A program made the position numbers and the translations under genes. A model generated the notes under the pieces. The model saw only the letters and a list, made by a program, of their open reading frames with translations, did not search any database and was not told the DNA's origin. A DNA stretch of 49,587 nt from Bdellovibrio sp. Its GTDB lineage: Bacteria; Bdellovibrionota; Bdellovibrionia; Bdellovibrionales; Bdellovibrionaceae. The stretch covers positions 1-49,587 of the forward strand of contig JABWCO010000007.1 of the NCBI GenBank assembly GCA_013360185.1. Direction: 5' to 3'. This document shows positions 6,731 through 44,065 of this stretch, piece by piece. Positions within the stretch are counted from its first letter, which is position 1; every line of letters begins with the position of its first letter.

Positions 6731-7138
6731 CTATTTTTTATCAATACTAATTGCGAACTTTTTAACCCCAGAACCTTTGACGACGTCTAAGACTCCGACA
6801 ACTTTTCCGTGGGGCACATCTTTATCTGCAGAAATAATTGCCTGAACCTCCGCATTTTTTGCGACCTCTTCAAGGGCTTTTGCTTTGACCTGCTCTTCGT
6901 CCACGAAAGTCCCATTTAAGTTGATTCGACCATCCGCAGTTAAAGCAATGTTCAATTTACTTGGAGCGGTTTGGTCTCCACTTGCGGCTTTCGGTAAGTT
7001 GACGTTAATGGTTGGTTTCATAAACATCGGTGCCGTCACCATAAAGATGATCAAAACCACCAGAATAATATCCACCAAAGGGACAACGTTAATGTCCGCT
7101 ATGGCTTCGTTGTCACCACTATCACCAAATGCTGCCAT
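6731..7138 (-). CDS. ExbD/TolR-family energy-transducing protein
   Basis: The 135 aa inner-membrane protein has one N-terminal membrane segment (about 19-41) carrying the family's conserved aspartate in VPLVDIILVVLIIFMVTAP, then a periplasmic domain of about 90 residues ending in VLDVVKGSGVKKFAISIDK. With the ExbB/TolQ partner upstream it forms a proton-driven motor that energises outer-membrane TonB-type or Tol-type processes. The start at 7138 is chosen because it follows the exbB stop by two bases. An upstream extension to 7174 would lie inside exbB. No TonB, TolA, TolB or Pal gene is adjacent, so ExbD, TolR or an AglS-like gliding-motor component cannot be told apart here. Confidence 0.9.
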   Translation of the reverse strand: MAAFGDSGDNEAIADINVVPLVDIILVVLIIFMVTAPMFMKPTINVNLPKAASGDQTAPSKLNIALTADGRINLNGTFVDEEQVKAKALEEVAKNAEVQAIISADKDVPHGKVVGVLDVVKGSGVKKFAISIDKK

Positions 7139-7140
7139 GA

Positions 7141-7770
7141 TTACATACCTTTTTTCTTCGCGTAAGCGAGGCAAAGTTCTTTGACACTCTCTAAGCTTTG
7201 GAAAATCGATTTCACTTGTTTGCTATAGTAATTGTAAGCCGCAACAGCAGGGATCGCGACGAAAAGGCCTGCTGCAGTTGCCACAAGAGCCATCGAAATG
7301 CCGGCCATCACCGTTTGTTGTCCAGCTTCTGGCGTCGTTGCCAAATCATTAAACGCCTTCATGATACCCAAAACAGTTCCGAACAATCCGATATAAGGAG
7401 CATTCGAACCCACGGTCGCCAGAAAACCTAAAAATTTTTCGAGCTCTGGGCGCTCTGTTAACGCAAATGTGTTAAATACTTGCTCTAAGCCACGGCCACC
7501 CGAATCACGCATATGTTTCAATGCATAACCTGCGGCGCGACCTTCTAAAGAGTTCGGATCTTTGGCAAGATCTTCAACATCTTCTAGACTGTTACTTTGT
7601 AATGCCATTTTTATACGTGCACGGACACGCTGAGATTCCGCGGCGACTTTTTTTAGGGCGAAAAAACGCTCTAAAATCATGCCTATGCTCATAACACTGA
7701 GAATAAGTAGGATCCAAAGTACGGCTTGATCCGCAAAATGAGCAACGGCGAAAATTTTCTCTGCAAACAT
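7141..7770 (-). CDS. ExbB/TolQ/MotA-family proton channel
   Basis: The 209 aa inner-membrane protein has a membrane segment at about 15-33 and two more at about 115-140 and 155-180, the second and third separated by a short loop. The MotA/TolQ/ExbB core is visible as FLGFLATVGSNAPYIGLFGT, then VLGIMKAFNDL and GISMALVATAAGLFVAIPAV. It forms the stator-like ring with the ExbD-type protein encoded two bases downstream. The ribosome site is a good GGAGG (complement at about 7780-7784). A candidate promoter at 7817-7844 faces the sulfatase promoter. Length is close to ExbB/TolQ. Confidence 0.93.
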   Translation of the reverse strand: MFAEKIFAVAHFADQAVLWILLILSVMSIGMILERFFALKKVAAESQRVRARIKMALQSNSLEDVEDLAKDPNSLEGRAAGYALKHMRDSGGRGLEQVFNTFALTERPELEKFLGFLATVGSNAPYIGLFGTVLGIMKAFNDLATTPEAGQQTVMAGISMALVATAAGLFVAIPAVAAYNYYSKQVKSIFQSLESVKELCLAYAKKKGM

Positions 7771-7790
7771 GGGTGATTTCCTCCAAATCT

Positions 7791-7819
7791 TTGACGAAGC
7801 AAAGTTATTGAACCATTAT
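7791..7819 (+). promoter_or_regulatory. Candidate sigma70 promoter of sulfatase-fold gene
   Basis: TTGACG (7791-7796) is separated by 17 bases from CATTAT (7814-7819), giving a start near 7826 and a leader of about 20 bases before the ATG at 7848. Its -10 overlaps the -10 of the opposing exbB promoter. Confidence 0.45.
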
Positions 7820-7844
7820 CTATAAAACACTTAGTCGCGGTCAA
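7817..7844 (-). promoter_or_regulatory. Candidate sigma70 promoter of exbB-exbD
   Basis: On the minus strand TTGACC (7844-7839) is followed after 16 bases by TAGATA (7822-7817). The leader to the exbB start would be about 39 bases and includes its GGAGG site. It is face to face with the plus-strand promoter, so simultaneous occupation is unlikely. Confidence 0.5.
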
Positions 7845-7847
7845 GGT

Positions 7848-9659
7848 ATGCGGAAAATCATTTTCTCTCTTTCCTTAGTTCTACTCAGCATGGTCCAGAT
7901 TTCTTGCAAAACTTCAGACAAGAAGTCGGTGCTTATTATTGCCGTGGACGAACTTACGACCACCGACGTTAATTGCAATCAAAACCCCGAGGACAATCAA
8001 CGCTCTGGTTTTCAATTGCTTTGCAATGAGTCTGTTCGCTTTACTCATGCCTTCACGCCCTCGACACTCTCGGTCCCCACTTTAAGTTCGCTTTTGACGG
8101 GACTTTATCCCTATCAGCATAAAGTGCGTCATAACTCAGGTCCTGGTCTAGCGCCGGAGTATGAAACTTTGCCAGAGGTTGCTTTGGCACAAGACTATCG
8201 CACCAGCTTCTTTTCTGGCGGCGCCCCCGTCTTTCGTCGGTCTGGATTGCATCAAGGTTTCGAGCTATTTGAAGACAACGTAATTCCTAATTTTAAATTT
8301 TTGTTTCGTCCGTTTAAAAAAAATGCGGATGCGTTTTTACAATGGCTGCATAATGACGTCGACACGAATCCCTTTTTAAGCGTGCTTTACGTTCCCGATC
8401 TTCTGTTCACCACCACCGAAACCGTGACGGACCTAGGTGAAACCCGAAATCTAAGTTTTGAAAGCCAAGTCGATGAGTTGGATGAAAGCCTTTTTGAACT
8501 TTTTAAAAACATGAAGGACAAGAAGATTTGGGATAAAACCACCGTGGTTGTGGTGGGCTTAAATGGGCACACAGCGGGCGACCGCTATCGTGAATTTTCA
8601 CCTTTGAATTTACACGGCGAAAACACTCAAGTCGCTTTACTGATCAAACCCTCCCAATCCAGAAAACGTGACGAAGCGATTCATTGGAAAATCGATCAGA
8701 ATGTGACCTTGGTAGACGTGGGTCGCACTTTATTTGATCTCTTAGGAGAAACCTCCGTCGAAGATGAAGTCCCCGCCTTTCCGACACACTCCTTACTGGA
8801 AGCTTTAAAAAGCCCGAACGCCTCATGGCCCGAAGATCGCCCCTTGTTACTGGAATCTGGCTGGGCCCTGTGGCGTAAAGCCGGACCTTTAAAAACCGGT
8901 GCAATTTCAGATCACGTTCTTTATATCAACGCCGAAAAACCACTGTTGTTTAATACTTTAGTAGATCGTCTCGAGGTCAATCCTTTGCCGCTGTTACAAC
9001 AAAGTATTTTACCGACCACACAACGACTGCGGGCTTTGCTGGAAAAAAATCAAATGCCTCCGTTTGTCCCTTTGAATTCCGAATGGGCTGCAAAACTAAG
9101 TATTCCCTTTTATCGCTGGATGCGCCTGGATCAGGAAGCTTTGTTACTGAAGGACCTAAAGCGTCTTTTAAGTTCCTCTTCACAAAGTATTGATCTTTTA
9201 AATTGGACAGCGCAGATCGCCTTGAACCAGAAAGATTGGGATACTTTAAAGCAGCTTGGCCTTAGAAATAAAATCGCCGTCTGGCAGTACGTCGGCGAAC
9301 GCAACCAGAACAATAAATTAGCCAAGATAAATGACTCGTGCTTCAACTTGCTGACGGCCCCTTTGGAAACTGAAATTTTAAAAAGCTGCAGCGATATTTT
9401 ATTTCTTGAGTTCATCGACTGGTTGCGCGCCGACGAGCGCGGCTTATACAAAGATGCCCAACGAAAACGATTTGAAAGATCTTTTAAAAATTACATGTTG
9501 GACCAACAGATTCAACGCGCGAACTTAGCCGCCGGTTTAATTTGGGACACCTCACGCGAGAACATCTTCGCGCCCTCAAGAACTGAATTAGCCTTAAGTT
9601 TGCCCGAATACAGTCGCGTCAAAAGTCAGGTTTATAAATCTTTGCAAAGTGAAGACTAA
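7848..9659 (+). CDS. Sulfatase/alkaline-phosphatase-fold lipoprotein
   Basis: The 603 aa product has a signal peptide ending VQISC with C20 as probable lipid anchor (the -3 residue Q is atypical). Residues of about 28-300 follow the sulfatase fold: a metal-binding aspartate in IIAVDELTTTDV, the nucleophile region TPSTLSVPTLSSLLTGLYPY, and a C-terminal metal-site block VVGLNGHTAGDRYREFSP. The canonical sulfatase sequence C/S-x-P-x-R reads S-V-P-T-L here, so the arginine is missing and the modified formylglycine residue would not be made in the usual way. The fold also includes phosphoglycerol and phosphoethanolamine transferases. The last 250 residues are helical and unfamiliar. The substrate is unknown. 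The AAGG before the ATG is very close, so initiation may be weak. Confidence 0.75.
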   Translation: MRKIIFSLSLVLLSMVQISCKTSDKKSVLIIAVDELTTTDVNCNQNPEDNQRSGFQLLCNESVRFTHAFTPSTLSVPTLSSLLTGLYPYQHKVRHNSGPGLAPEYETLPEVALAQDYRTSFFSGGAPVFRRSGLHQGFELFEDNVIPNFKFLFRPFKKNADAFLQWLHNDVDTNPFLSVLYVPDLLFTTTETVTDLGETRNLSFESQVDELDESLFELFKNMKDKKIWDKTTVVVVGLNGHTAGDRYREFSPLNLHGENTQVALLIKPSQSRKRDEAIHWKIDQNVTLVDVGRTLFDLLGETSVEDEVPAFPTHSLLEALKSPNASWPEDRPLLLESGWALWRKAGPLKTGAISDHVLYINAEKPLLFNTLVDRLEVNPLPLLQQSILPTTQRLRALLEKNQMPPFVPLNSEWAAKLSIPFYRWMRLDQEALLLKDLKRLLSSSSQSIDLLNWTAQIALNQKDWDTLKQLGLRNKIAVWQYVGERNQNNKLAKINDSCFNLLTAPLETEILKSCSDILFLEFIDWLRADERGLYKDAQRKRFERSFKNYMLDQQIQRANLAAGLIWDTSRENIFAPSRTELALSLPEYSRVKSQVYKSLQSED

Positions 9660-29669: not shown

Positions 29670-30392
29670 TTAGAAATTTCCCGATCTTTTCATCAAACCC
29701 TCGCGGTTTTTGATGATGATTTCTTTACCATTCAGATCAATCAATCCTTCGTTTTTAAACTCGGTCAAGTGACGCGATAAAGACTCGTTGATGGTGCTTG
29801 CCAGCTGCGCAAACTCGTTGCGTGTCAGGCGCAGATTTAAAGAGATCCCCTGCGGAGTTTGCACGCCAAAACGATCCGAAAGCATGACCAGCTGATACGC
29901 GATACGCTCTTGCACCGAAGCCAAGTAGTGCAACTGACTAGTGTTTTCAAAGGACTCTAGATCATTCACAGACTGATTCAAAAGTAGCTTCACCAGGGGG
30001 CTTGCCTGAGCAATGGCCACCTGAATAAGCTCTCGCGGATAAAGCCAAAGGACGGTGGGCTTGACCGCCTTCGCGTGGCATTGGATAGGCGCATTCTTAA
30101 CAAGTGCTTTGTATCCAAAATATTCACTGGGCGAAACTAGTTTTGTAACATACTCATTTGTGGTCGTGCGGCCTCTGGCATGGGACCGATTCACTACAAC
30201 CTTCACACATCCAGATTGCACATAATAAAGGCCCTTGGACTGCTCACCCTCTTTAAAGATCGTTTCTTCTTCCTTCAGGTGAATGACCTCATAAGGCACA
30301 TTTGAAGTGTTTGGAATATTTAGGTTTAGGTTTTGATTTGCCATAAAACCAAGAGAGTTAACGCCGCCATTTAGGATTGTTTGAGATTCCAT
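29670..30392 (-). CDS. Crp/Fnr-family transcriptional regulator
   Basis: The 240 aa product has a cyclic-nucleotide-binding-type beta barrel at about 35-145 (ETIFKEGEQSKGLYYVQSGC, then SEYFGYKALV) and a C-terminal winged helix at about 165-228. The recognition region is RLTRNEFAQLASTINESLSR. The usual cAMP-phosphate arginine loop (RSAT-type) is not obvious, and no Fnr cysteine cluster is present, so the effector is unknown. The first 30 residues are a low-complexity extension. GGAGG lies before the ATG. It is divergent from the nucleoside-importer operon with about 256 bases between the starts, and may regulate it (inference). Confidence 0.88.
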   Translation of the reverse strand: MESQTILNGGVNSLGFMANQNLNLNIPNTSNVPYEVIHLKEEETIFKEGEQSKGLYYVQSGCVKVVVNRSHARGRTTTNEYVTKLVSPSEYFGYKALVKNAPIQCHAKAVKPTVLWLYPRELIQVAIAQASPLVKLLLNQSVNDLESFENTSQLHYLASVQERIAYQLVMLSDRFGVQTPQGISLNLRLTRNEFAQLASTINESLSRHLTEFKNEGLIDLNGKEIIIKNREGLMKRSGNF

Positions 30393-30528
30393 TCTTATTA
30401 CCTCCGAGTTGCTTCGTTGAGTTCATCGTTACGGCAATCCTAATCTGGTATTAAACAATCAACTAATTGAAATTAAGACATAACAGCGTTGTAACGGCGG
30501 AGTATATTTACCTGGCTGTCCTTTCGGC

Positions 30529-30557
30529 TTGACTCACTCAGGCACTGCTCTTACGTT
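30529..30557 (+). promoter_or_regulatory. Candidate sigma70 promoter of nucleoside-importer operon
   Basis: TTGACT (30529-30534) and TACGTT (30552-30557) are spaced by 17 bases, upstream of the binding-protein start at 30649. A leader of about 85 bases would follow. The -10 is only fair. Confidence 0.4.
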
Positions 30558-30648
30558 CACGGACCAAGAAATCAAAGTTTTTTTTGTAAAATCAAACGCT
30601 TACTTGATGCCAAAAAGCACTCAAGTTTCTTTGCTCTTGGGGGACCAA

Positions 30649-31632
30649 ATGATGTTTAAGTCGATCCTTACCAACTTGTTAATAATGCTAATCAGCACAT
30701 TTTCATTCGCAAATACACTTAAAGTCGGCCTGGTTTTAGATAAGGGCGGCAAAGATGATAAGTCTTTCAATGCGGCAGCTTACTTAGGTGCAACGAAAGC
30801 GCAAAAAGATTTAAAGATCGATTTGAAATATGTCGAGGCAACTGACACAAATGCGATTGAAAATTTACATCGTTCTTTTGCCCGAAAGAATTTCGACTTA
30901 GTGATCGGAATTGGCTTTGCACAAAAAGATGCCGTTCAAAAAGTCGCAGCCCAATTTCCTAAAGTAAAATTCGCGATCGTCGACGGCGAAATCAATGCGG
31001 CGAACGTACGCTCTTTGTTGTTTGAAGAGCACGAAGGTTCTTTCCTCGTCGGTGCTCTTGCGGCAATGACTTCAAAAACAAACTCTGTTGGTTTTGTCGG
31101 GGGCATGGATATTCCACTGATCCGCCGCTTTGCGATGGGTTATGTTGCCGGGGCAAAATATATCAATCCAAAAATCACGACGACAGAAAACTATGTTGGC
31201 GTCACTGGTGAGGCTTGGAACAATCCCGCAAAGGCCAAAGAGCTGGCGTTGGCACAATTTGCAAAAGGTGCTGACGTAATTTATGCAGGCGCTGGCGCCT
31301 CAAACACCGGCGTTTTTGATGCCGCTGAAGATAAAAAGAAATTCGCTATTGGTTGTGATTCCAATCAGAACTGGATTAAGCCGGGCGTAATTTTAACAAG
31401 CATGTTGAAAGCCGTGGACGTTGCCGTTTATGACACCATCAAAGAAACCCAAGAGGGTAAGTTCACCGGTGGCGTCAGCCGCTTTGGTTTGAAAAATAAA
31501 GGTGTTGATTACACTTTGGACCAATACAATGAAAAGCTAATCCCAGCTGAAACTCGTAAAAAATTAGAAGACATCAAAGCTAAAATCATCGCGGGACAAA
31601 TCCAAGTTCCTGATTATTACAAAAAGAAATAA
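30649..31632 (+). CDS. BMP/PnrA-family nucleoside-binding protein of ABC importer
   Basis: The 327 aa product has a signal peptide (1-21, ending FSFA before NTL) and the BMP/Med fold: LKVGLVLDKGGKDDKSFN at the N terminus, then FDLVIGIGFAQKDAVQKVA and VGFVGGMDIPLIRRFAMGYV. No lipobox cysteine is present, so it should be a free periplasmic binding protein rather than a lipoprotein as in many relatives. The family binds purine nucleosides. The upstream open frame reaches 30529, but the double ATG at 30649 has a GGGGGA ribosome site and gives the signal peptide. The ATPase gene follows after three bases. Confidence 0.9.
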   Translation: MMFKSILTNLLIMLISTFSFANTLKVGLVLDKGGKDDKSFNAAAYLGATKAQKDLKIDLKYVEATDTNAIENLHRSFARKNFDLVIGIGFAQKDAVQKVAAQFPKVKFAIVDGEINAANVRSLLFEEHEGSFLVGALAAMTSKTNSVGFVGGMDIPLIRRFAMGYVAGAKYINPKITTTENYVGVTGEAWNNPAKAKELALAQFAKGADVIYAGAGASNTGVFDAAEDKKKFAIGCDSNQNWIKPGVILTSMLKAVDVAVYDTIKETQEGKFTGGVSRFGLKNKGVDYTLDQYNEKLIPAETRKKLEDIKAKIIAGQIQVPDYYKKK

Positions 31633-31635
31633 GCG

Positions 31636-33114
31636 ATGACCATTCCAGCGGCGATAGAGTTCAAAGGAGTATCGAAGTTTTTCGGCGAAGTTCACGCCAA
31701 TTCTGATGTTTCTTTTTATGTCGCGAAAGGCAGCATTCACGGCATCGTTGGTGAAAACGGTGCCGGCAAATCCACTGCCATGAAAATCCTTTTTGGTCTT
31801 TACCAACCTGATGCCGGCCAAGTTTTTTTAAATGGCAAACCTGTTGCGTTTTCTTCGCCTATTGATGCGATGAACGCCAAGGTTGGCATGGTTCACCAGC
31901 ACTTTATGCTGGCAGAACCCTATACGGCTTTAGATAATATTTTATTGCAACAAAAAGGCTCCGCATTTTCGCTGTTGCCACGCAAAGAACAAAAAGCTCG
32001 TTTGCAGTCTTTAGCCGAACACTATGGCTTTTCAATCAACTTAGATTCTTTGGTTGAAGATCTTTCCGTGGGCGAACAACAACGTATCGAAATTTTGAAA
32101 ATTCTGTCCCAGGATTCTGAAATTTTAATTCTTGATGAACCCTCGGCAGTTTTAACACCTCAAGAAGTTCAGGATTTATTCAAAAACTTGCGCCGCCTGC
32201 GCGACGAAGGCAAAACAATTTTAATTATCACCCATAAGCTTAAAGAAGTGATGAGTCTTACCGACGCCGTCACCGTGTTCCGGGCTGGGAAAGTTGTCGG
32301 TCATAAAAAAACTGTCGATACGAATTGCGAAGATCTCGCCGAAATGATGGTCGGTCGCCGACCACAAAAGCCCCAAGAGCGCAGCACGACTGTGGATGAG
32401 AAGTCCCCGATCCTTAAGTTTGAAAATGTCAGTGCGTCTTTAGGCAATCACAGTGTTGCAAATATCAACTTTACACTGCATCGCCGAGAAATCTTGGGCA
32501 TCGCGGGAGTTGAGGGCAACGGACAAGATATCATCATTCGCGCTTTGTTAGATAAGTCAGCTTTAAAAAAGTCTTCTTTCGTGGGCACGGTCACCAGCAC
32601 GGGTCTGGTGGGCTCATTCCCTGAAGATCGATTGCGTTTTGGTGTTTTGCCATCGCGTCCGATTTATGAAAATTTTCTTTTGGGTCAGCAGTATAACCCA
32701 CAGTTTCGTCGTGGGATCTTTTTGAAAGTACGACAGATTATTTCGCGCACCCAAGAAATCATGAACGCCTATGACGTTCGGCCCCACAATCCCCTGCTGC
32801 CTTTCGAAAAGCTTTCCGGTGGGAATCAGCAGAAGTTGGTTGTGGCCCGCACCCTTTCGCAAAAACCGGACGTGGTGATCGCGGCTCAACCTACGCGTGG
32901 CGTGGACATCGGCGCTGTTGAGTTTATTCATGGTGAAATTCGCAAAGCCCGCGATGAGGGCGCCGGGATTCTTTTGATTTCATCAGAACTTGATGAATTG
33001 ATGACCCTGTCAGATCGTATTCTAGTTTTGTACAAAGGAAAAATCGTCGCGGAGTTTACCCGCAAGGAATTTGACGAAGTAGCCTTAGGAACATCAATGG
33101 GAGGCGGACGATGA
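31636..33114 (+). CDS. Nucleoside ABC importer, tandem ATPase
   Basis: The 492 aa cytosolic protein has two ABC domains of the RbsA/NupA type. The first has Walker A GENGAGKST (39-47), signature LSVGEQQRIEI and Walker B ILILDEPSAVL. In the second, the Walker A position reads VEGNGQDI without the lysine, a change usual in the C-terminal half of this class, while signature LSGGNQQK and Walker B PDVVIAAQPTRG remain. So probably one strong ATP site operates. Its stop overlaps the next gene as ATGA. It is the energy unit for the two permeases and the BMP-type binding protein. Confidence 0.94.
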   Translation: MTIPAAIEFKGVSKFFGEVHANSDVSFYVAKGSIHGIVGENGAGKSTAMKILFGLYQPDAGQVFLNGKPVAFSSPIDAMNAKVGMVHQHFMLAEPYTALDNILLQQKGSAFSLLPRKEQKARLQSLAEHYGFSINLDSLVEDLSVGEQQRIEILKILSQDSEILILDEPSAVLTPQEVQDLFKNLRRLRDEGKTILIITHKLKEVMSLTDAVTVFRAGKVVGHKKTVDTNCEDLAEMMVGRRPQKPQERSTTVDEKSPILKFENVSASLGNHSVANINFTLHRREILGIAGVEGNGQDIIIRALLDKSALKKSSFVGTVTSTGLVGSFPEDRLRFGVLPSRPIYENFLLGQQYNPQFRRGIFLKVRQIISRTQEIMNAYDVRPHNPLLPFEKLSGGNQQKLVVARTLSQKPDVVIAAQPTRGVDIGAVEFIHGEIRKARDEGAGILLISSELDELMTLSDRILVLYKGKIVAEFTRKEFDEVALGTSMGGGR

Positions 33115-34142
33115 AACGCATCATTGGTTTAATCTTAGGCTTATGTATCGCACTTTCGTTAACTTTGTTTGCTGGCGAAAATCCTTTAAATGTTTTTATG
33201 ATCCTGATGCGCAGTGCTTTTGGTTCGATGTACGACTTGGGCCTGACTTTGTCTTACACAACCCCGCTGATTTTTTGTGGCCTTTCTGTGGCCGTTGGCT
33301 TTCATGCCGGATTATTTAATATCGGTGCTGAGGGACAGCTGACTATTGCCGTTGTCACAGCAGCAGCGGTGGGAATTCTATTTCCAAACATTCCATTTCC
33401 ACTAGCACCGATGGTGGCATTTGCTGCGGCTTTACTCGCGGGAGGCTTGTGGGGATGGATTGCAGGATGGTTGCGTGCCTATCGCGGCAGCCATGAAGTG
33501 ATTATTACAATCATGCTGAATTTTATCGCGGCTGGTTTAGCTAGCTGGTTCACTTTACAGATTATTCCGAATCCAAATTCACAGAGTCCTGAAACGGCCG
33601 TGGTCAGTCCCAACTATATGTTTAAGGATTATGACCTCATCGCCCGCCGCTTTCCTGATACACCAGCAAATGCCTCGTTAGTTTTTGCAATTGTGTTTGC
33701 CATTGTCATGTGGATATTTCTCTGGAAAACCCCGTGGGGCTTTGCTTTGCGGGCTGTGGGATCAAACCCTGAAGCGGCCCATCGTGCCGGAATTTCAGGG
33801 AAACGCGTGCAGATGTTAGCCATGACCATCGCGGGAGCTATGGCTGGTTGTGTGGCCTTATCTGAAGTTTTAGGCAGCACCGGGCAATATCGAATTGGGT
33901 TTTCTCCGGATTATGGTTTTATCGGAATTGCGGTGGCCCTGCTGGCTAACAACAATCCTTTAGGAATTATTGCTGCAGCTTTTTTAATGGGAGCTTTGCA
34001 TAAAGGGGCTTCGGATTTAGATCTTGAAACAGCGACGATTACGCGCAATTTTTCGCAAATCATTCAAGCGTTGATCATTCTTGGCGTGACCGCGCAAGGG
34101 TACTGGGCGTGGATTAGCAAAAATAAAAGGAGAAAAAACTAA
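33111..34142 (+). CDS. Nucleoside ABC importer permease 1
   Basis: The 343 aa inner-membrane protein has about eight to ten hydrophobic segments and the BPD_transp_2 (RbsC/NupB) layout: LSYTTPLIFCGLSVAVGFHA, FNIGAEGQLTIAVV, then the EAA-like loop in GFALRAVGSNPEAAHRAG, which contacts the ATPase. It is the larger of two permeases, as in BmpA-NupABC-type nucleoside systems. The start overlaps the ATPase gene by four bases and the stop overlaps the next start as TAATG. Confidence 0.92.
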   Translation: MKRIIGLILGLCIALSLTLFAGENPLNVFMILMRSAFGSMYDLGLTLSYTTPLIFCGLSVAVGFHAGLFNIGAEGQLTIAVVTAAAVGILFPNIPFPLAPMVAFAAALLAGGLWGWIAGWLRAYRGSHEVIITIMLNFIAAGLASWFTLQIIPNPNSQSPETAVVSPNYMFKDYDLIARRFPDTPANASLVFAIVFAIVMWIFLWKTPWGFALRAVGSNPEAAHRAGISGKRVQMLAMTIAGAMAGCVALSEVLGSTGQYRIGFSPDYGFIGIAVALLANNNPLGIIAAAFLMGALHKGASDLDLETATITRNFSQIIQALIILGVTAQGYWAWISKNKRRKN

Positions 34143-35011
34143 TGGAGTTCATGCTGCTCGTTTTTTCTTTGTTGTTTGCAACTTTGCGTCTGGCGACCCC
34201 GCTGATTTTTGCATCTATGGGTGGCTTTATGAGCGAACGCTCCGGAGTCGTCAATGTGGCGCTGGAAGGCTTTATGCTCGCAGGTGCCTTTGCCGGGGCT
34301 GTCGTGGGCTATTCCTTTGACTCTGCCTGGTTGGGCTGGGGAGCCGCTTTAATCGCGGGATTGGCAATGGGTGCATTCTATGCTTTCTTCACGATTGAGT
34401 TGAAAGCGGACCAAATCATCACGGGTATGGCGGTGAATCTTTTGGTAATGGGTTTAATTCCGTTTATCACAAAAATTCTTTATAGCTCGACAGGCTCTAC
34501 CCCAGCACTTTTATTAGAAGATCGTTTTAGATTTGAACCTATGCTGATGGCTTTTATCTTGGTGACGGCTTTAACCTACTGGTTATACAAAACCCGTTCG
34601 GGCCTGTGGTTGCTCTTTGCTGGCGAACATCCCGAGGCCCTTGTTGCGAGCGGCGTGAGTGTGCGCAAAGTGCGCTGGGCGGCCGTCAGCTTAAGTGGTG
34701 TCTTTGCCGCCTGGGGAGGCACAAGCTTATCACTATTCTTGGCTTCGTCGTATTCACCGATGATGACCGGGGGGCGAGGCTTTATGGCACTCGCCGCTTT
34801 GATTTTTGGTAAGTGGCGCCCGTTACCTGCGTTCTTAGCTTGTCTGCTATTTGCTTTTGCCGATGCTGTGCAAATTCGCCTGCAAGGGATGCACATCGGT
34901 AACTTCGAAATTCCTGTTCAGTTTATTCAAATTTTGCCTTACGTTGTCACCATCATCGCATTGGCCGGATTTATTGGTAAAAGTCGGGCTCCGAAGGCTT
35001 TGGGAAAATAA
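34142..35011 (+). CDS. Nucleoside ABC importer permease 2
   Basis: The 289 aa inner-membrane protein is the shorter partner permease (NupC-like) of the same family. LATPLIFASMGGFMSERSG, VVNVALEGFMLAGAFAG and the ATPase-contact loop LFAGEHPEALVASGVSVRKV are visible, with about eight membrane segments. Together with permease 1 it forms the heterodimeric channel. It is translationally coupled upstream (TAATG), and the S1/P1 nuclease gene follows 14 bases downstream. Confidence 0.92.
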   Translation: MEFMLLVFSLLFATLRLATPLIFASMGGFMSERSGVVNVALEGFMLAGAFAGAVVGYSFDSAWLGWGAALIAGLAMGAFYAFFTIELKADQIITGMAVNLLVMGLIPFITKILYSSTGSTPALLLEDRFRFEPMLMAFILVTALTYWLYKTRSGLWLLFAGEHPEALVASGVSVRKVRWAAVSLSGVFAAWGGTSLSLFLASSYSPMMTGGRGFMALAALIFGKWRPLPAFLACLLFAFADAVQIRLQGMHIGNFEIPVQFIQILPYVVTIIALAGFIGKSRAPKALGK

Positions 35012-35025
35012 TTAAGCGAGGTTTT

Positions 35026-36102
35026 ATGAAACATCTTTTGGTTGGTCTGCTGTTGCTTGGCTCTGCAAACGCTTTGGCTTGGGGCGGTCGTGGTCATGAT
35101 ACTATCTGCCGTGTAGCGAGCTTTTTAGTGAAGGAACCGGGCCTTAAAGAATATTTGCAGCACAAACCCCAAATGATGGGACACCTGTGCAACATGCCAG
35201 ACTTTTACTGGAAGAGCTTAGGTGGCGATGTCGGCAAACTAGGAAACCCGACACACTTTATCGATATCGAAGTGATCGGTCTGGATGTGAAAGACATTCC
35301 GATGGAGTATAAAAAAATTATCGCGGACTTTACTGGCAAGCCTGATAAATTTAAAAATGATGGCACCACAATTAAATCTATTCCCACAGAGTTTGGCTCT
35401 TCATGGTGGCGTGCAGATCAGTTCATGCGCATCATTGCAGCACTCGAGAAAGAATTCTCGTTGTCGTCTGTTCCCGCAAACTTCAAAGAAGAGCAAAACA
35501 ACGAGCTTCCCTACAATAAGATCGCGTACCAAATGGTCGTGTCGATGGGCCTGATGGGTCATTACGTTGGCGACAATGGACAGCCTTTTCATACAACGGC
35601 AGACTATGACGGCTATGCGACAGGTCACGGCGGCATCCATGCCTATTATGAAGATGCCGTAGTTGGAAATTTCGATGGCGATTTAGATTTCTTAGTCCTC
35701 AAAGAAGCGCGTGCAATGAAGAACCCAGCCTTCTTAAAGCCAGCAACGACGATTGAAAAAATGAAATCTTTGGGTGTCATTTCAAATAAAGAAATTTCGA
35801 AGATTTATAAATTAGACCCGATCAAGAAAAAATCAGTCCTGACCAAAGAACGTGGCATGGAAATCAAAACCGCAGCGGAACGTGAGCCAGCAATTGTCGC
35901 CTTCAAGAAAATGAAGCCTATGATTGTCACCCAAATGGCACGCAGCGCTTTGTTGTTAGCAAACTTGTGGGACACTTCTTATGCCCAAGCCGGCAAGCCG
36001 AAACTGGGCGCTTACAAGTCGTACAAATACCCATTCACCGTGGATTTTGTGGCTCCTGATTATCTTGATGCTTCAGAAAAAACTGCGGAAGAGAAAAAAT
36101 AA
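35026..36102 (+). CDS. Secreted S1/P1-type zinc nuclease
   Basis: The 358 aa product has a signal peptide (1-18, ending NALA); the mature chain would begin with W19, the N-terminal zinc ligand of the family, followed by H24 at mature position 6 as in P1. Other ligands are D59 (MPDFYW), H77 (PTHFID), H179 and D183 (GHYVGD), H189 (PFHTT) and H205 (GGIHAYYED). The last usual ligand, an aspartate four residues after H205, is E209 here, with D210 next to it. These enzymes cut single-stranded RNA and DNA to 5'-nucleotides and may act as 3'-nucleotidases. Being in an operon with a nucleoside importer, it probably prepares substrate in the periplasm or in prey. GAGG site before ATG. Confidence 0.92.
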   Translation: MKHLLVGLLLLGSANALAWGGRGHDTICRVASFLVKEPGLKEYLQHKPQMMGHLCNMPDFYWKSLGGDVGKLGNPTHFIDIEVIGLDVKDIPMEYKKIIADFTGKPDKFKNDGTTIKSIPTEFGSSWWRADQFMRIIAALEKEFSLSSVPANFKEEQNNELPYNKIAYQMVVSMGLMGHYVGDNGQPFHTTADYDGYATGHGGIHAYYEDAVVGNFDGDLDFLVLKEARAMKNPAFLKPATTIEKMKSLGVISNKEISKIYKLDPIKKKSVLTKERGMEIKTAAEREPAIVAFKKMKPMIVTQMARSALLLANLWDTSYAQAGKPKLGAYKSYKYPFTVDFVAPDYLDASEKTAEEKK

Positions 36103-36115
36103 TATGTTTTAAATT

Positions 36116-36142
36116 TTAGTGCGGATAAAAATGCCGCACTAA
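36116..36142. terminator. Hairpin between convergent nuclease and exporter genes
   Basis: TTAGTGCGG (36116-36124) pairs with CCGCACTAA (36134-36142) around a nine-base loop. It covers the stop of the minus-strand exporter gene (36139). T-runs are short on either side, so efficiency is doubtful. Confidence 0.5.
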
Positions 36143-40206: not shown

Positions 40207-41268
40207 GTGAACGTTTTTAAGGGCATCTTCCCATTACTATTTGTCTTGGGTGCAGTTACATCTCAAGCCGCCGATGTCAGCGGCATTACCGTAAATGGCG
40301 AAGCCGCTTTTGATTTTAACTTCGTTTCTTCCAAAAATGCGGCATATCCAAACAGCGATGGCAATGGATTGAGCCTAGGCAATGAGTCTTACCGGTTAGC
40401 AAAGGCGCAATTGTTACTGAAGAAGGAAACGGACGACCTTTCTTTTACCGGCCGCCTGGCTTACACGCCGATGTCTTATAATGATGGGACAAAGACTACG
40501 AAAGCTTACTTTGGTGCCTTGGAACAGATGGAACTTTTCTTTAAAGTTAATCCACAACTGCAAATCGGCTTCGGTCGCTTCTTAACAACAATGGGGTATG
40601 AGTCCTTAATGCGCTATGAAAACGCATTTTACAATCCCACGGTTGCTTACCAAGCCATTGTTCCGGGTTACGGAGAAGGCTTGCGCGTTCGCTATTTGCC
40701 AGGAACTTGGCTGACGGCGACCCTTTCGACATACAATCAGTTTAATTATGGCGCGATCGGCGAAGACCTGACTCCAACAAAGGCTACGGAACTTTCTTTA
40801 TTGTCAAATTTGGACAATTTGACCCTGTTCGCGGGCTACTTAATGGGCGCTGACAGCACCACGACTCCAGGAACGAATGAAGACAAATCTGCGACGAGTG
40901 TGTGGGCATCTTATAAATTTATGCCTGAGTTAATGTTGGCAATTACTTACGATGCCAAATCGAACAAAGTGAACGGCGGCACAGAGCTTAACGCAACCTC
41001 AACGAGCGCCGTTTTAACTTACACGGTCGACATTCACAATCTTGGATTGCGCTATGAAACGATTGGTAAAGCAGCCAACGCCGGCTATGGCACGGCTGAC
41101 AAAGTCGACGTGATTTCAATCACCGACAAGATCGCCCTTTCGAGCAATTTAAATGTCTATGTCGAATACCGTATGGATAAAGCAGACGAGAAAGTCTTCT
41201 TTGACAAAGATGGAGCGGCTGCGGACAACGCCAACGTTGTGACCCTGGGCGCCTTGGCATACTTCTAG
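40207..41268 (+). CDS. Outer-membrane beta-barrel (porin-like) protein
   Basis: The 353 aa product has a signal peptide (1-21, ending SQA before ADV). It is a long barrel with strands such as LQIGFGRFLTTMGYE, GEGLRVRYLPGTWLTATLST and LNVYVEYRMDKADEKVF, ending in a C-terminal phenylalanine (GALAYF). The RLAKAQLLLKKETDDLSFTG segment and FGRFLTTMGYE are features of the DUF1597/porin family of outer-membrane proteins (loose match). GTG start with AAAAGGAG at about 40194-40200. It is monocistronic with terminator at 41282. Confidence 0.82.
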   Translation: MNVFKGIFPLLFVLGAVTSQAADVSGITVNGEAAFDFNFVSSKNAAYPNSDGNGLSLGNESYRLAKAQLLLKKETDDLSFTGRLAYTPMSYNDGTKTTKAYFGALEQMELFFKVNPQLQIGFGRFLTTMGYESLMRYENAFYNPTVAYQAIVPGYGEGLRVRYLPGTWLTATLSTYNQFNYGAIGEDLTPTKATELSLLSNLDNLTLFAGYLMGADSTTTPGTNEDKSATSVWASYKFMPELMLAITYDAKSNKVNGGTELNATSTSAVLTYTVDIHNLGLRYETIGKAANAGYGTADKVDVISITDKIALSSNLNVYVEYRMDKADEKVFFDKDGAAADNANVVTLGALAYF

Positions 41269-41281
41269 TTTTATGAGAAAC

Positions 41282-41312
41282 AAAAGGCTCCGCAAGGGGC
41301 CTTTTAGTTTTT
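41282..41312 (+). terminator. Intrinsic terminator after barrel gene
   Basis: AAAAGGCTCC (41282-41291) pairs with GGGGCCTTTT (41296-41305), one pair being G-U, around a GCAA tetraloop; a T-rich stretch follows at 41308-41312. Confidence 0.85.
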
Positions 41313-41470
41313 GGTTTAAGCTCTACGATATCCTTATCATATTATAGTTCTCTCTCCCTCCCCTTGCTCCACTTCTAAAGTACATCGCCCATCAAAAATA
41401 AATGCGAATATTGTGCTTTTCCAGCACCTAAGTTGTGCTAGGCTTTAATAAAAGGAAATACATCCTGAAC

Positions 41471-44065
41471 ATGCAAAAAAAGAAAATCATCAACGGCACT
41501 ATCAAAAGACATCCGGACGGCTTTGGATTTTTTATTCCCGAAGACATCGAACATCCCGATGTCTATATCCCCCGCCAATCTATGGACGGGATCATGACTA
41601 ATGATAAAGTCGCGATCGAAGTGTTCCCAGAAAAAGGCACGGACCGTTTTCGCGGCGAGGTCGTCAAGGTCTTGTCCCGCGGAACTAAAGTAGTTGTCGG
41701 TCGCTTTTATAAAATTAACGAGCGTTTAGGCGCCATCCGTGACGAAGGCAAAGGTTGGGGGCAAGACCTTAAGATCAAGCTTGAAGACTCAATGGATGCC
41801 AAAGACAAAGAACTTGTTACTGCGGAAATTTCTACGTACCCCGATAACGGCAAATCTTTCACTGGAAAAGTGATCGAGATTATCGGCGATGCCTTAGATC
41901 CCTTAACCGACATCAAACGCGTGATTCGCTCAAACGGCATTCCTTTAGAGTTTTCTAAAGCAACCCTCGAAGAAGCCGAACAATTCGGAGAAGTCCCAGA
42001 AGAAAAGGACTTTAAAGGCCGTCGCGATCTGCGCGATAAAAATCTGATCACGATTGACGGCGCGACGGCGAAAGACTTCGACGACGCTGTTTATGTCGAA
42101 ACCCAGAGCGAAGGCTTCCTGTTATACGTGGCCATCGCGGACGTGAGTCATTATGTGCGCACCGGCTCCGCTATCGACAAAGACGCATATGAACGTGGCA
42201 CCTCAGTCTATTTCCCTAATTATGTCGTTCCGATGTTGCCCGAGGTTTTAAGTAACGGTTTGTGCTCTTTAAATCCGCACGTACCGCGTCTGTGTTTGGT
42301 TGCCGAGATTCTTTTCGATTTTGCTGGCGAAGTAAAACGGTCGGACTTCTATGAAGCCGTAATGGAAAGTAAAGCACGAGTCACCTATGGAGAAGCGCAA
42401 GAAGTTATCGACGGCAATGCCTCCGATAAGCACGCCCATGTGAAAGAAAATATCTTGCGTCTGGCAGACTTAGCAAAAATCCTCATGGCCAAACGCTTTA
42501 GAGAAGGCTCATTGGATTTAGAAATTCCCGAAGTCGAGTTGGTGATTGACGGCGCCGGGGTTCCTGTCGACATTCAAAAATCGGAACGTCTCTTTGCCCA
42601 TCGTCTGATTGAAGAAATGATGTTGGCGGCTAACGTCGCCGTGGCGACGTTCCTATCTAGCAAAAATATTCCCTCTTTGTATCGAATCCATGAGCCGCCC
42701 AATGAAATGGCGATCCGAGTTTTAGAAAAGTATCTGAACAACTTCGGCAGCAAAACCAAACTGAACCAAGGTAAGCTGCAAAAACGTCTGACCAAAGCGT
42801 TAGAGGAGTTTGCCCATCGCCCGGAAGCTCAGATTTTAAATATTTTAACTTTACGTTCTATGAGCCAAGCAAAGTACAGCATGAACAACTTAGGCCACTT
42901 CGGCTTAGGCTTTGAGTTCTATAGTCACTTTACTTCGCCGATTCGTCGTTATCCGGATTTGATAGTTCATCGCTTAATCAAAAATCAGGTAATGCCAAAC
43001 TCTCAATACCGCTTGATGAGCGAAGACGACTTAGCCACGGCTGGCACCATCTTGTCGGCGGCAGAACAACGTTCCACAAAAGCAGAGCGCCAAGTTCAGT
43101 CGATAAAAAAAGCACGCTTCATGGAAAAGTTCCTCGGCCAAGAATTCGACGGCATGATCAGCTCTGTCGCGAAATTCGGGGTTTTTGTCCTTTTACGTGA
43201 ATACGAAGTCGACGGCTTAGTCCGCTTAGAAGATCTAGGTGGGGACCGCTTTGAGTACGACGAAGAAAACATTCGTTTGATTGCAAAACGCTCCGGCTTT
43301 TCTTATGGCATCGGTGATTCAATCCGCATCCAAGTGGCAGCCGCTGATCCAGAGCTAGGGCAAATTAACTTTGTTTTAGCTGGTGCAGATAAAGAAGAAA
43401 ACGCAGGCAAAAAAACCTCGGCCGAAGCTTCCGCTGGAGCATATCTAAAAAAACTGCACAACCAACACAAAACTCGTGGCTCAGGCCGACCGGATCGTGG
43501 CGACCGCGACGAACGGCAAAATCGCGACGAGCGCTCCTCGTTTAAGGACCGCCATAAACAGGGAACAGACTTTGGCTCTGGCGGCGGTAAGAAAAAAGAT
43601 TTTGAAAGCAAAGAGCGATTGTCGGAATTTAAAAAGAATTCACCGAATCCGAAAGGCCGTTCACACTTTTTTGAGGACTCGCGCAAGGACGAAAGTGGCC
43701 AGCAGGAAAAGTTGCAAAAGATTCAGCGCCAACAAAAGTTTGAACCGGGCAAGCGCGCTGATGATGATGCTAAAAAAGGTCCTGACCAAAACTTGTTAAA
43801 CATGATCCTTGGTCCAGCCAAGTATCGTGGCAACTCGCCAGAGGTCCCAGCACAAGACAAACCCAAACTCAGTAAAAAATTGATGTTTGCCGAACAGTCT
43901 AAACTCCGAGATAATGACGAGAATTCGGAGAAAAATAGTGACAGCCTTAAACACCGGACGCCAGATCGGAAAGACCCTAAAAAACGCAGCTCGGCTAAGA
44001 ACGATAGTCGGGGTGTTCGCAAAGCACGGGTTTCACCAGGTCGCGGAAAAGGTAAAGCTCGGTAA
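41471..44065 (+). CDS. rnr: Ribonuclease R
   Basis: The 864 aa 3'-5' exoribonuclease degrades structured RNA. A cold-shock-type domain is at about 1-75 (NGTIKRHPDGFGFFI), a second OB region at about 80-150, then the RNB domain at about 185-515 with catalytic aspartates in KDFDDAVYV (D202, D204, D205), the HFTSPIRRYPDLIVHR block, and an S1 domain at about 555-640 (GMISSVAKFGVFVLL). The C-terminal 220 residues are Lys/Arg/Asp/Ser-rich and disordered, longer than in E. coli. The ATG at 41471 follows AAGGAAA at a slightly long distance. The last 128 bases overlap the start of ubiB in another frame. Confidence 0.96.
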   Translation: MQKKKIINGTIKRHPDGFGFFIPEDIEHPDVYIPRQSMDGIMTNDKVAIEVFPEKGTDRFRGEVVKVLSRGTKVVVGRFYKINERLGAIRDEGKGWGQDLKIKLEDSMDAKDKELVTAEISTYPDNGKSFTGKVIEIIGDALDPLTDIKRVIRSNGIPLEFSKATLEEAEQFGEVPEEKDFKGRRDLRDKNLITIDGATAKDFDDAVYVETQSEGFLLYVAIADVSHYVRTGSAIDKDAYERGTSVYFPNYVVPMLPEVLSNGLCSLNPHVPRLCLVAEILFDFAGEVKRSDFYEAVMESKARVTYGEAQEVIDGNASDKHAHVKENILRLADLAKILMAKRFREGSLDLEIPEVELVIDGAGVPVDIQKSERLFAHRLIEEMMLAANVAVATFLSSKNIPSLYRIHEPPNEMAIRVLEKYLNNFGSKTKLNQGKLQKRLTKALEEFAHRPEAQILNILTLRSMSQAKYSMNNLGHFGLGFEFYSHFTSPIRRYPDLIVHRLIKNQVMPNSQYRLMSEDDLATAGTILSAAEQRSTKAERQVQSIKKARFMEKFLGQEFDGMISSVAKFGVFVLLREYEVDGLVRLEDLGGDRFEYDEENIRLIAKRSGFSYGIGDSIRIQVAAADPELGQINFVLAGADKEENAGKKTSAEASAGAYLKKLHNQHKTRGSGRPDRGDRDERQNRDERSSFKDRHKQGTDFGSGGGKKKDFESKERLSEFKKNSPNPKGRSHFFEDSRKDESGQQEKLQKIQRQQKFEPGKRADDDAKKGPDQNLLNMILGPAKYRGNSPEVPAQDKPKLSKKLMFAEQSKLRDNDENSEKNSDSLKHRTPDRKDPKKRSSAKNDSRGVRKARVSPGRGKGKAR
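43927..43940 (+). promoter_or_regulatory. Ribosome site setting the ubiB GTG start
   Basis: GGAG (43927-43930) lies seven bases before GTG (43938), inside the rnr coding region. No comparable site precedes the ATGs at 43887 or 43914. Confidence 0.7.

Follow-up and report, generated by a model that had tools for sequence, protein, structure and literature searches.

A stretch of 49,587 nucleotides from Bdellovibrio sp. (assembly GCA_013360185.1, contig JABWCO010000007.1, positions 1 to 49,587; referred to here as the window) carries, at 30649–36102, five adjoining genes in which a predicted nucleoside importer of the ATP-binding cassette (ABC) type is followed by a secreted zinc enzyme of the S1/P1 type. 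The best reading of this locus, to which we give a probability of about 65%, is an operon for nucleic-acid salvage. By comparative standards the operon is real, and comparison of gene order places the importer–enzyme pairing in the Bdellovibrionaceae, where it is kept often, not always.

Operon structure and gene order

All five open reading frames are intact and lie on the forward strand. They encode a BMP/PnrA-like substrate-binding protein that is non-lipidated and predicted to bind nucleosides (30649–31632; PF02608, E = 1.5 × 10−68); an ABC importer ATPase with two nucleotide-binding domains on a single chain (31636–33114; PF00005 (ABC_tran) in two stretches, E = 7.8 × 10−42); the importer permeases 1 and 2 (33111–34142 and 34142–35011; PF02653 (BPD_transp_2), E = 3.2 × 10−42 and 7 × 10−32); and the S1/P1-type enzyme, a predicted nuclease recognized by its zinc ligands and model fold (35026–36102), the mature chain of which would start at Trp19 (35080). 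These positions, and the intergenic gaps of 3, −4, −1 and 14 bases, are as first reported. A sigma-70-like promoter, TTGACT - 17 bases - TACGTT, is predicted at 30529–30557 on the forward strand, and the pattern TTGACT-17-TANNTT, with a spacer of exactly 17, is present in the gap between the neighbouring Crp-type gene and the importer in all 23 Bdellovibrio loci compared. At the junction of permease 2 and the enzyme, a consensus scan found no promoter or terminator candidate between 35011 and 35026, which bears out the original prediction that the importer genes and the nuclease form one unit. Comparison gives the strongest support for a single unit. One Bdellovibrio genome, G016, lacks the four importer genes, and there the same promoter and leader run directly into the enzyme gene; beyond the genus, L069, L070 and L096 are three relatives with an enzyme start that overlaps the permease stop by 4 bases. 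The clean junction, the promoter shared with G016 and these overlaps together make it likely that the five genes are a single operon and are co-transcribed in the window species.

We compared the positions of permease 2 and the enzyme in 148 relatives and read about 60 of the neighbourhoods. Wherever a Bdellovibrio genome has both the importer and the enzyme (22 of 22), the two are neighbours; G003, where the locus is cut by a contig end, and G016 are not in this count. In the rest of the Bdellovibrionaceae the two adjoin in 22 of 29 genomes (44 of 51 for the whole family), and outside the family in none of 19, many of which are draft assemblies. The conserved order that had been proposed thus holds within the family but not beyond it. 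Further afield, a scan of 84,980 species genomes turned up nuclease loci in Myxococcota, Vicinamibacteria, Oligoflexus, Hymenobacter and others, and in none of these does an importer flank the enzyme. Since most of the family retains the order, we consider the arrangement to be beyond chance. The whole locus is also present, at 413–419.5 kb, in G006, which we take to be B. bacteriovorus HD100.

The linkage has exceptions, and these count against the salvage reading. Seven genomes of the family hold the enzyme and the importer apart, and the enzyme is at its usual site but lacks a neighbouring importer in G024, G027, G044, G045, G049, G052, G054 and G061; in G032 the importer is present and the enzyme absent. 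Because the enzyme persists where the importer has been replaced, it would be useful without this importer. The genes might be merely co-expressed during growth, with an importer for free nucleosides and an enzyme for some other task, such as the breakdown of biofilm or of cyclic di-GMP. Such a view is consistent with the enzyme standing without an adjoining importer in G016, G024, G027, G044, G045 and G049, with the absence of linkage outside the family and with the cleavage of cyclic di-GMP by SmNuc1, an S1/P1 enzyme of Stenotrophomonas maltophilia (PMC11705217). It is possible, if unlikely, given the linkage across the family, the start–stop codon overlap seen in three lineages and the survival of the block at new sites in G025 and G056, in which all five genes stand together without their usual neighbours.

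Genus g3 (Pseudobdellovibrio-like) has importers that cluster with the importers of a different family (approximately unbiased test, P = 0.005 against one family clade). For L101, L102 and L103, as well as L071, L072, L075 and L100, transfer of the importer genes followed by relinkage to the enzyme is possible but unsure, as the branches are long. Repeated independent origins of the linkage, for which this grouping would make three gains the shortest history, are not relied on here, again because the joining branches are long.

Substrate of the importer

The operon combines a Bmp-domain protein, a double ATPase and two BPD_transp_2 permeases, as in PnrA/BMP importers. The model of the binding protein (predicted local distance difference test (pLDDT) score of 89) is closest to structures that hold nucleosides: Lbp with guanosine (Z = 40.3), Treponema pallidum PnrA with inosine (Z = 38.5) and BmpD with adenosine (Z = 37.9), with pneumococcal PnrA (adenosine, thymidine and uridine) also in this nearest set, which spans Z scores of 40.3 to 37.1. 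Alignment identifies the pocket residues as F40, N41, D112, W190, D237 and K254, which are invariant in 20 relatives. Among these are an aromatic sandwich of F40 and W190, the latter where known members have their second stacking Phe, and the Asp and Lys contacts to ribose (D112, D237 and K254), with roles as described for the PnrA/BMP family (PMC13325309, PMC7093131).

In its BMP fold (Z = 37–40), pocket, double ATPase and two permeases the system resembles PnrA/TmpC of T. pallidum, BmpD of Borrelia, PnrA of Streptococcus pneumoniae and Lbp of Clostridium thermocellum. It differs from them in the Trp that replaces the second stacking Phe, in an operon that continues into a nuclease-type gene and in a binding protein without the lipid-anchor Cys, which instead has a type-I signal peptide, MMFKSILTNLLIMLISTFSFA, with no lipobox cysteine. 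Non-lipidated binding proteins are common in Gram-negative bacteria, and anchoring does not define function.

An independent line of evidence comes from the distribution of carriers of the NupC type (CNT). Across 149 genomes, the Bmp family is present in 73 and CNT in 48, and both occur only in G061 (L103). G016 is the only Bdellovibrio genome without the importer and the only one with a NupC-type nucleoside carrier; in its loci L065 (around 7100–8000) and L258 (9203–10474), the promoter is kept before the enzyme and NupC lies elsewhere. To control for relatedness, we used a ValS tree of 90 genomes and drew pairs of genomes, each pair on its own path, of which one member has the importer and the other lacks it. 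In 11 independent pairs, CNT differed in the opposite direction in 8.8 on average and in the same direction in 0 (median P = 0.004). For the 108 best genomes, a Fisher test yields 1.7 × 10−18, a value that ignores relatedness and should not stand alone. Some genomes have neither carrier, such as G049 (L073; 99% complete), although the enzyme is in place. That a nucleoside carrier repeatedly takes the place of the importer is most easily understood if nucleosides are the cargo of both, and this near mutual exclusion is good indirect evidence that nucleosides are the substrate of the importer, as originally proposed.

The importer could in principle carry another small molecule, such as riboflavin, vitamin B6 or purine-like compounds, given that the riboflavin protein RfuA (Z = 34.6) and AtzT (Z = 33.3) belong to the same fold family and that NCBIfam models of vitamin B6 transporters give weak matches. 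This is very improbable, because the nearest structures all bind nucleosides, the importer and CNT exclude one another, and the B6 models score far under their cut-offs. A vitamin B6 importer was rejected on these scores (85 against 400 bits for the binding protein, and 366 against 670, 162 against 400 and 138 against 465 bits besides).

The secreted S1/P1-type enzyme

The AlphaFold2 model of the enzyme (pLDDT of 94.6) matches the nucleases S1, P1, TBN1, AtBFN2 and SmNuc1 with Z scores of 19.3–21.1 (223–236 residues, root-mean-square deviation of 3.3–4.0), compared with 15.1–17.5 for phospholipases C. Its signal peptide, intact as first noted, ends in ALA|W, so that cleavage would fall exactly before the essential N-terminal Trp; in the relatives shown, W1 is preceded by Ala, Gly or Ser, as the signal peptidase site requires. 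Nine zinc-ligand positions, W1, H6, D41, H59, H161, D165, H171, H187 and E191 (mature numbering; comparison with SmNuc1, PMC11705217), are the same in all of 34 relatives. The nucleoside site has its HFxD motif, H59-F60-I61-D62, the counterparts of which are Phe81/Asp83 in S1 and Tyr89/Asn91 in SmNuc1 (PMC5201275, PMC11705217). The position +3 after the catalytic Asp is an invariant Trp44, and Lys or Arg follows at +4, one place off the S1/P1 pattern. The signal peptide, the ligand positions and a fold nearer to nucleases uphold the call of a secreted S1/P1-type enzyme, which has the fold, N-terminal Trp and nine ligand positions of the S1/P1 family, SmNuc1 included.

Several features speak against a nuclease. 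The match to S1-P1_nuclease (PF02265) reaches only 23.1 bits (E = 7.8 × 10−5) where the gathering score is 29.5, and the family assignment of the original prediction was therefore right but weaker than it sounded; a more distant relative, L112, passes the cut-off with 41.5 bits. Identity to solved S1/P1 enzymes is 12–17%. A further difference from the S1/P1 family, SmNuc1 included, is the presence of about 45 extra residues between His59 and His161. The loop 171–187, where characterized nucleases hold their nucleoside-binding residues, among them an Asn for the sugar, is 8 residues shorter than in SmNuc1, and the ninth ligand is Glu191 rather than Asp. Glu and a short last loop, along with the superfamily fold, are shared with the zinc-dependent phospholipases C of B. 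cereus and Listeria: the ligand and the H171–H187 spacing (16 in the window enzyme) are Glu and 14 in B. cereus phospholipase C, and Asp and 23–24 in P1 or SmNuc1.

The enzyme might therefore act on phospholipids or another phosphoester, in which case the operon would join the breakdown of membranes or phosphoesters to nucleoside import. The ligand, the spacing and a weak match to the phospholipase family PF00882 in 9 of the 34 relatives fit this alternative. In the window enzyme itself, PF00882 gives no match at E = 0.001 or 0.01, the structure is 3–4 Z units nearer to nucleases, the W1–H6 spacing is nuclease-like and differs from that of phospholipases C, and the adjoining genes import nucleosides; we consider a phospholipase-like activity unlikely. 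Sequence comparison places the enzyme in a divergent branch of the S1/P1/phospholipase C superfamily, and the modelled fold and the ligands indicate that it is most likely, and quite probably, a nuclease.

Proposed salvage of prey nucleic acid

In the proposed salvage model, one promoter at 30529–30557 would give a five-gene message. The product of the last gene would be exported, trimmed to its Trp start and loaded with three zinc ions, and, judging by fold and ligands, would cut RNA and single-stranded DNA to 5'-nucleotides. A further extracytoplasmic phosphatase would have to remove the phosphate, which is the weakest step. The binding protein would then capture the nucleosides, and the importer, with two permeases and one ATPase, would take them in; structure and the NupC-type replacement point to this substrate. 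The lifestyle of a predator that grows inside its prey suggests that prey RNA and DNA are the starting material. The original prediction of a salvage unit stands as to the operon, the gene order within the family, the nucleoside-type importer and the S1/P1-type enzyme. It had suggested that the 3'-nucleotidase activity of the nuclease family, or another enzyme elsewhere, might remove the phosphate from 5'-nucleotides. The first of these misfits the known chemistry, in which 5'-nucleotides are the products of S1/P1 enzymes and their phosphatase activity is directed at 3'-nucleotides (PMC5201275, PMC11705217). It had also not considered the uptake of intact monophosphates.

The phosphate is where the salvage model is most exposed. 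We found no 5'-nucleotidase (PF02872) in G000, G006, G016, G049, G044 or G027, whereas 10 control genomes were positive, and the uptake of intact nucleoside monophosphates by B. bacteriovorus 109J has been reported (Ruby 1985 and Rittenberg and Langley 1975, as cited in PMC7529429), which conflicts with a pure nucleoside route. The importer might thus take in the intact 5'-nucleoside monophosphates made by the nuclease of its own operon, with no need of a phosphatase, and be the Bdellovibrio nucleotide uptake system described in 1975–1985. The 109J reports, as far as that citing paper relays them, the 5'-monophosphate products of S1/P1 enzymes, the six genomes without a detected 5'-nucleotidase and the exchange of the second stacking Phe for Trp all suit this possibility. 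We hold it to be distinctly unlikely, as the structurally characterized close relatives all hold nucleosides in a deeply buried pocket (PMC13325309) and the CNT carriers that replace the importer are nucleoside carriers. The TLC-type nucleotide carrier PF03219 gave no match, but neither did the controls, so its absence is not shown. Elsewhere in the window, a sulfatase/type I phosphodiesterase-family protein (7848–9659; PF00884, PF01663) is a candidate for extracytoplasmic phosphoester cleavage.

Upstream of the operon and divergent from it, a Crp/Fnr-family gene (29670–30392, reverse strand; PF00027 (cNMP-binding) and PF13545 (HTH_Crp_2)) encodes a candidate operon regulator, and such a gene adjoins the operon, or the enzyme alone, in most Bdellovibrionaceae loci. 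A conserved intergenic element at 30462–30484 (forward strand), which has one mismatch to the genus consensus CCTAATTGAAATTNNGACATAAC from 23 aligned loci, is a candidate operator. The element occurs once in each of two whole genomes; a regulon that shares it was rejected because it is found only at this locus in the two. A further, strongly conserved stretch, TTTTTTGTAAAATCAAACGCTTA, lies in the leader at 30580–30602 (forward strand; genus alignment) and occurs once in the window; it is a candidate operator or RNA element. A riboswitch or structured leader 5' of the binding-protein gene was rejected, with no match in Rfam and no pairs from RNAalifold. To the right of the operon, an EamA-type transporter gene in convergent orientation has its end at 36139. 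Further downstream (40207–44065) come genes for an OmpL-like porin (BBP2) and for an RNase R-type protein with an RNB domain; an RNase R-type gene is kept near the enzyme in many family members. A viral structure library gave no match at E = 0.001 or better.

In the G006 interval from the gliding cluster to DivIVA (Bd0464), the sole cNMP-binding gene is the regulator beside the operon. Because there is only one, Bd0446, 'putative cyclic nucleotide binding', which is raised at exit phase in a 2025 proteome (log2 fold change of 2.28; PMC12546842), is very probably the HD100 counterpart of the window regulator; this says nothing about the expression of the operon itself. The published table of 20 HD100 nucleases includes no S1/P1 enzyme (PMC3593177, Table 1). 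The HD100 nucleases Bd0934, Bd3507, Bd1244 and Bd1934 are also exported and are thought to digest prey nucleic acid, but belong to the endonuclease I or SNase families (PMC3593177); predation continued when Bd1244 and Bd1934, or Bd0934 and Bd3507, were deleted (PMC3593177, PMC7925074). Searching the literature by presumed HD100 locus tags yielded no publication on the five genes, and we found none that names a transporter for the products of prey nucleic acid in Bdellovibrio. The two gene families are each known; that they are coupled in a predator operon seems not to have been described in the papers searched.

How Bdellovibrio digests and imports the nucleic acid of its prey is an old question, for which this operon gives one defined locus, bringing together a secreted enzyme that the published nuclease table lacks and a transporter for which a concrete substrate prediction has independent support. 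The mutual exclusion of BMP-type and NupC-type carriers also offers a means of predicting nucleoside uptake from genomes across the Bdellovibrionota.

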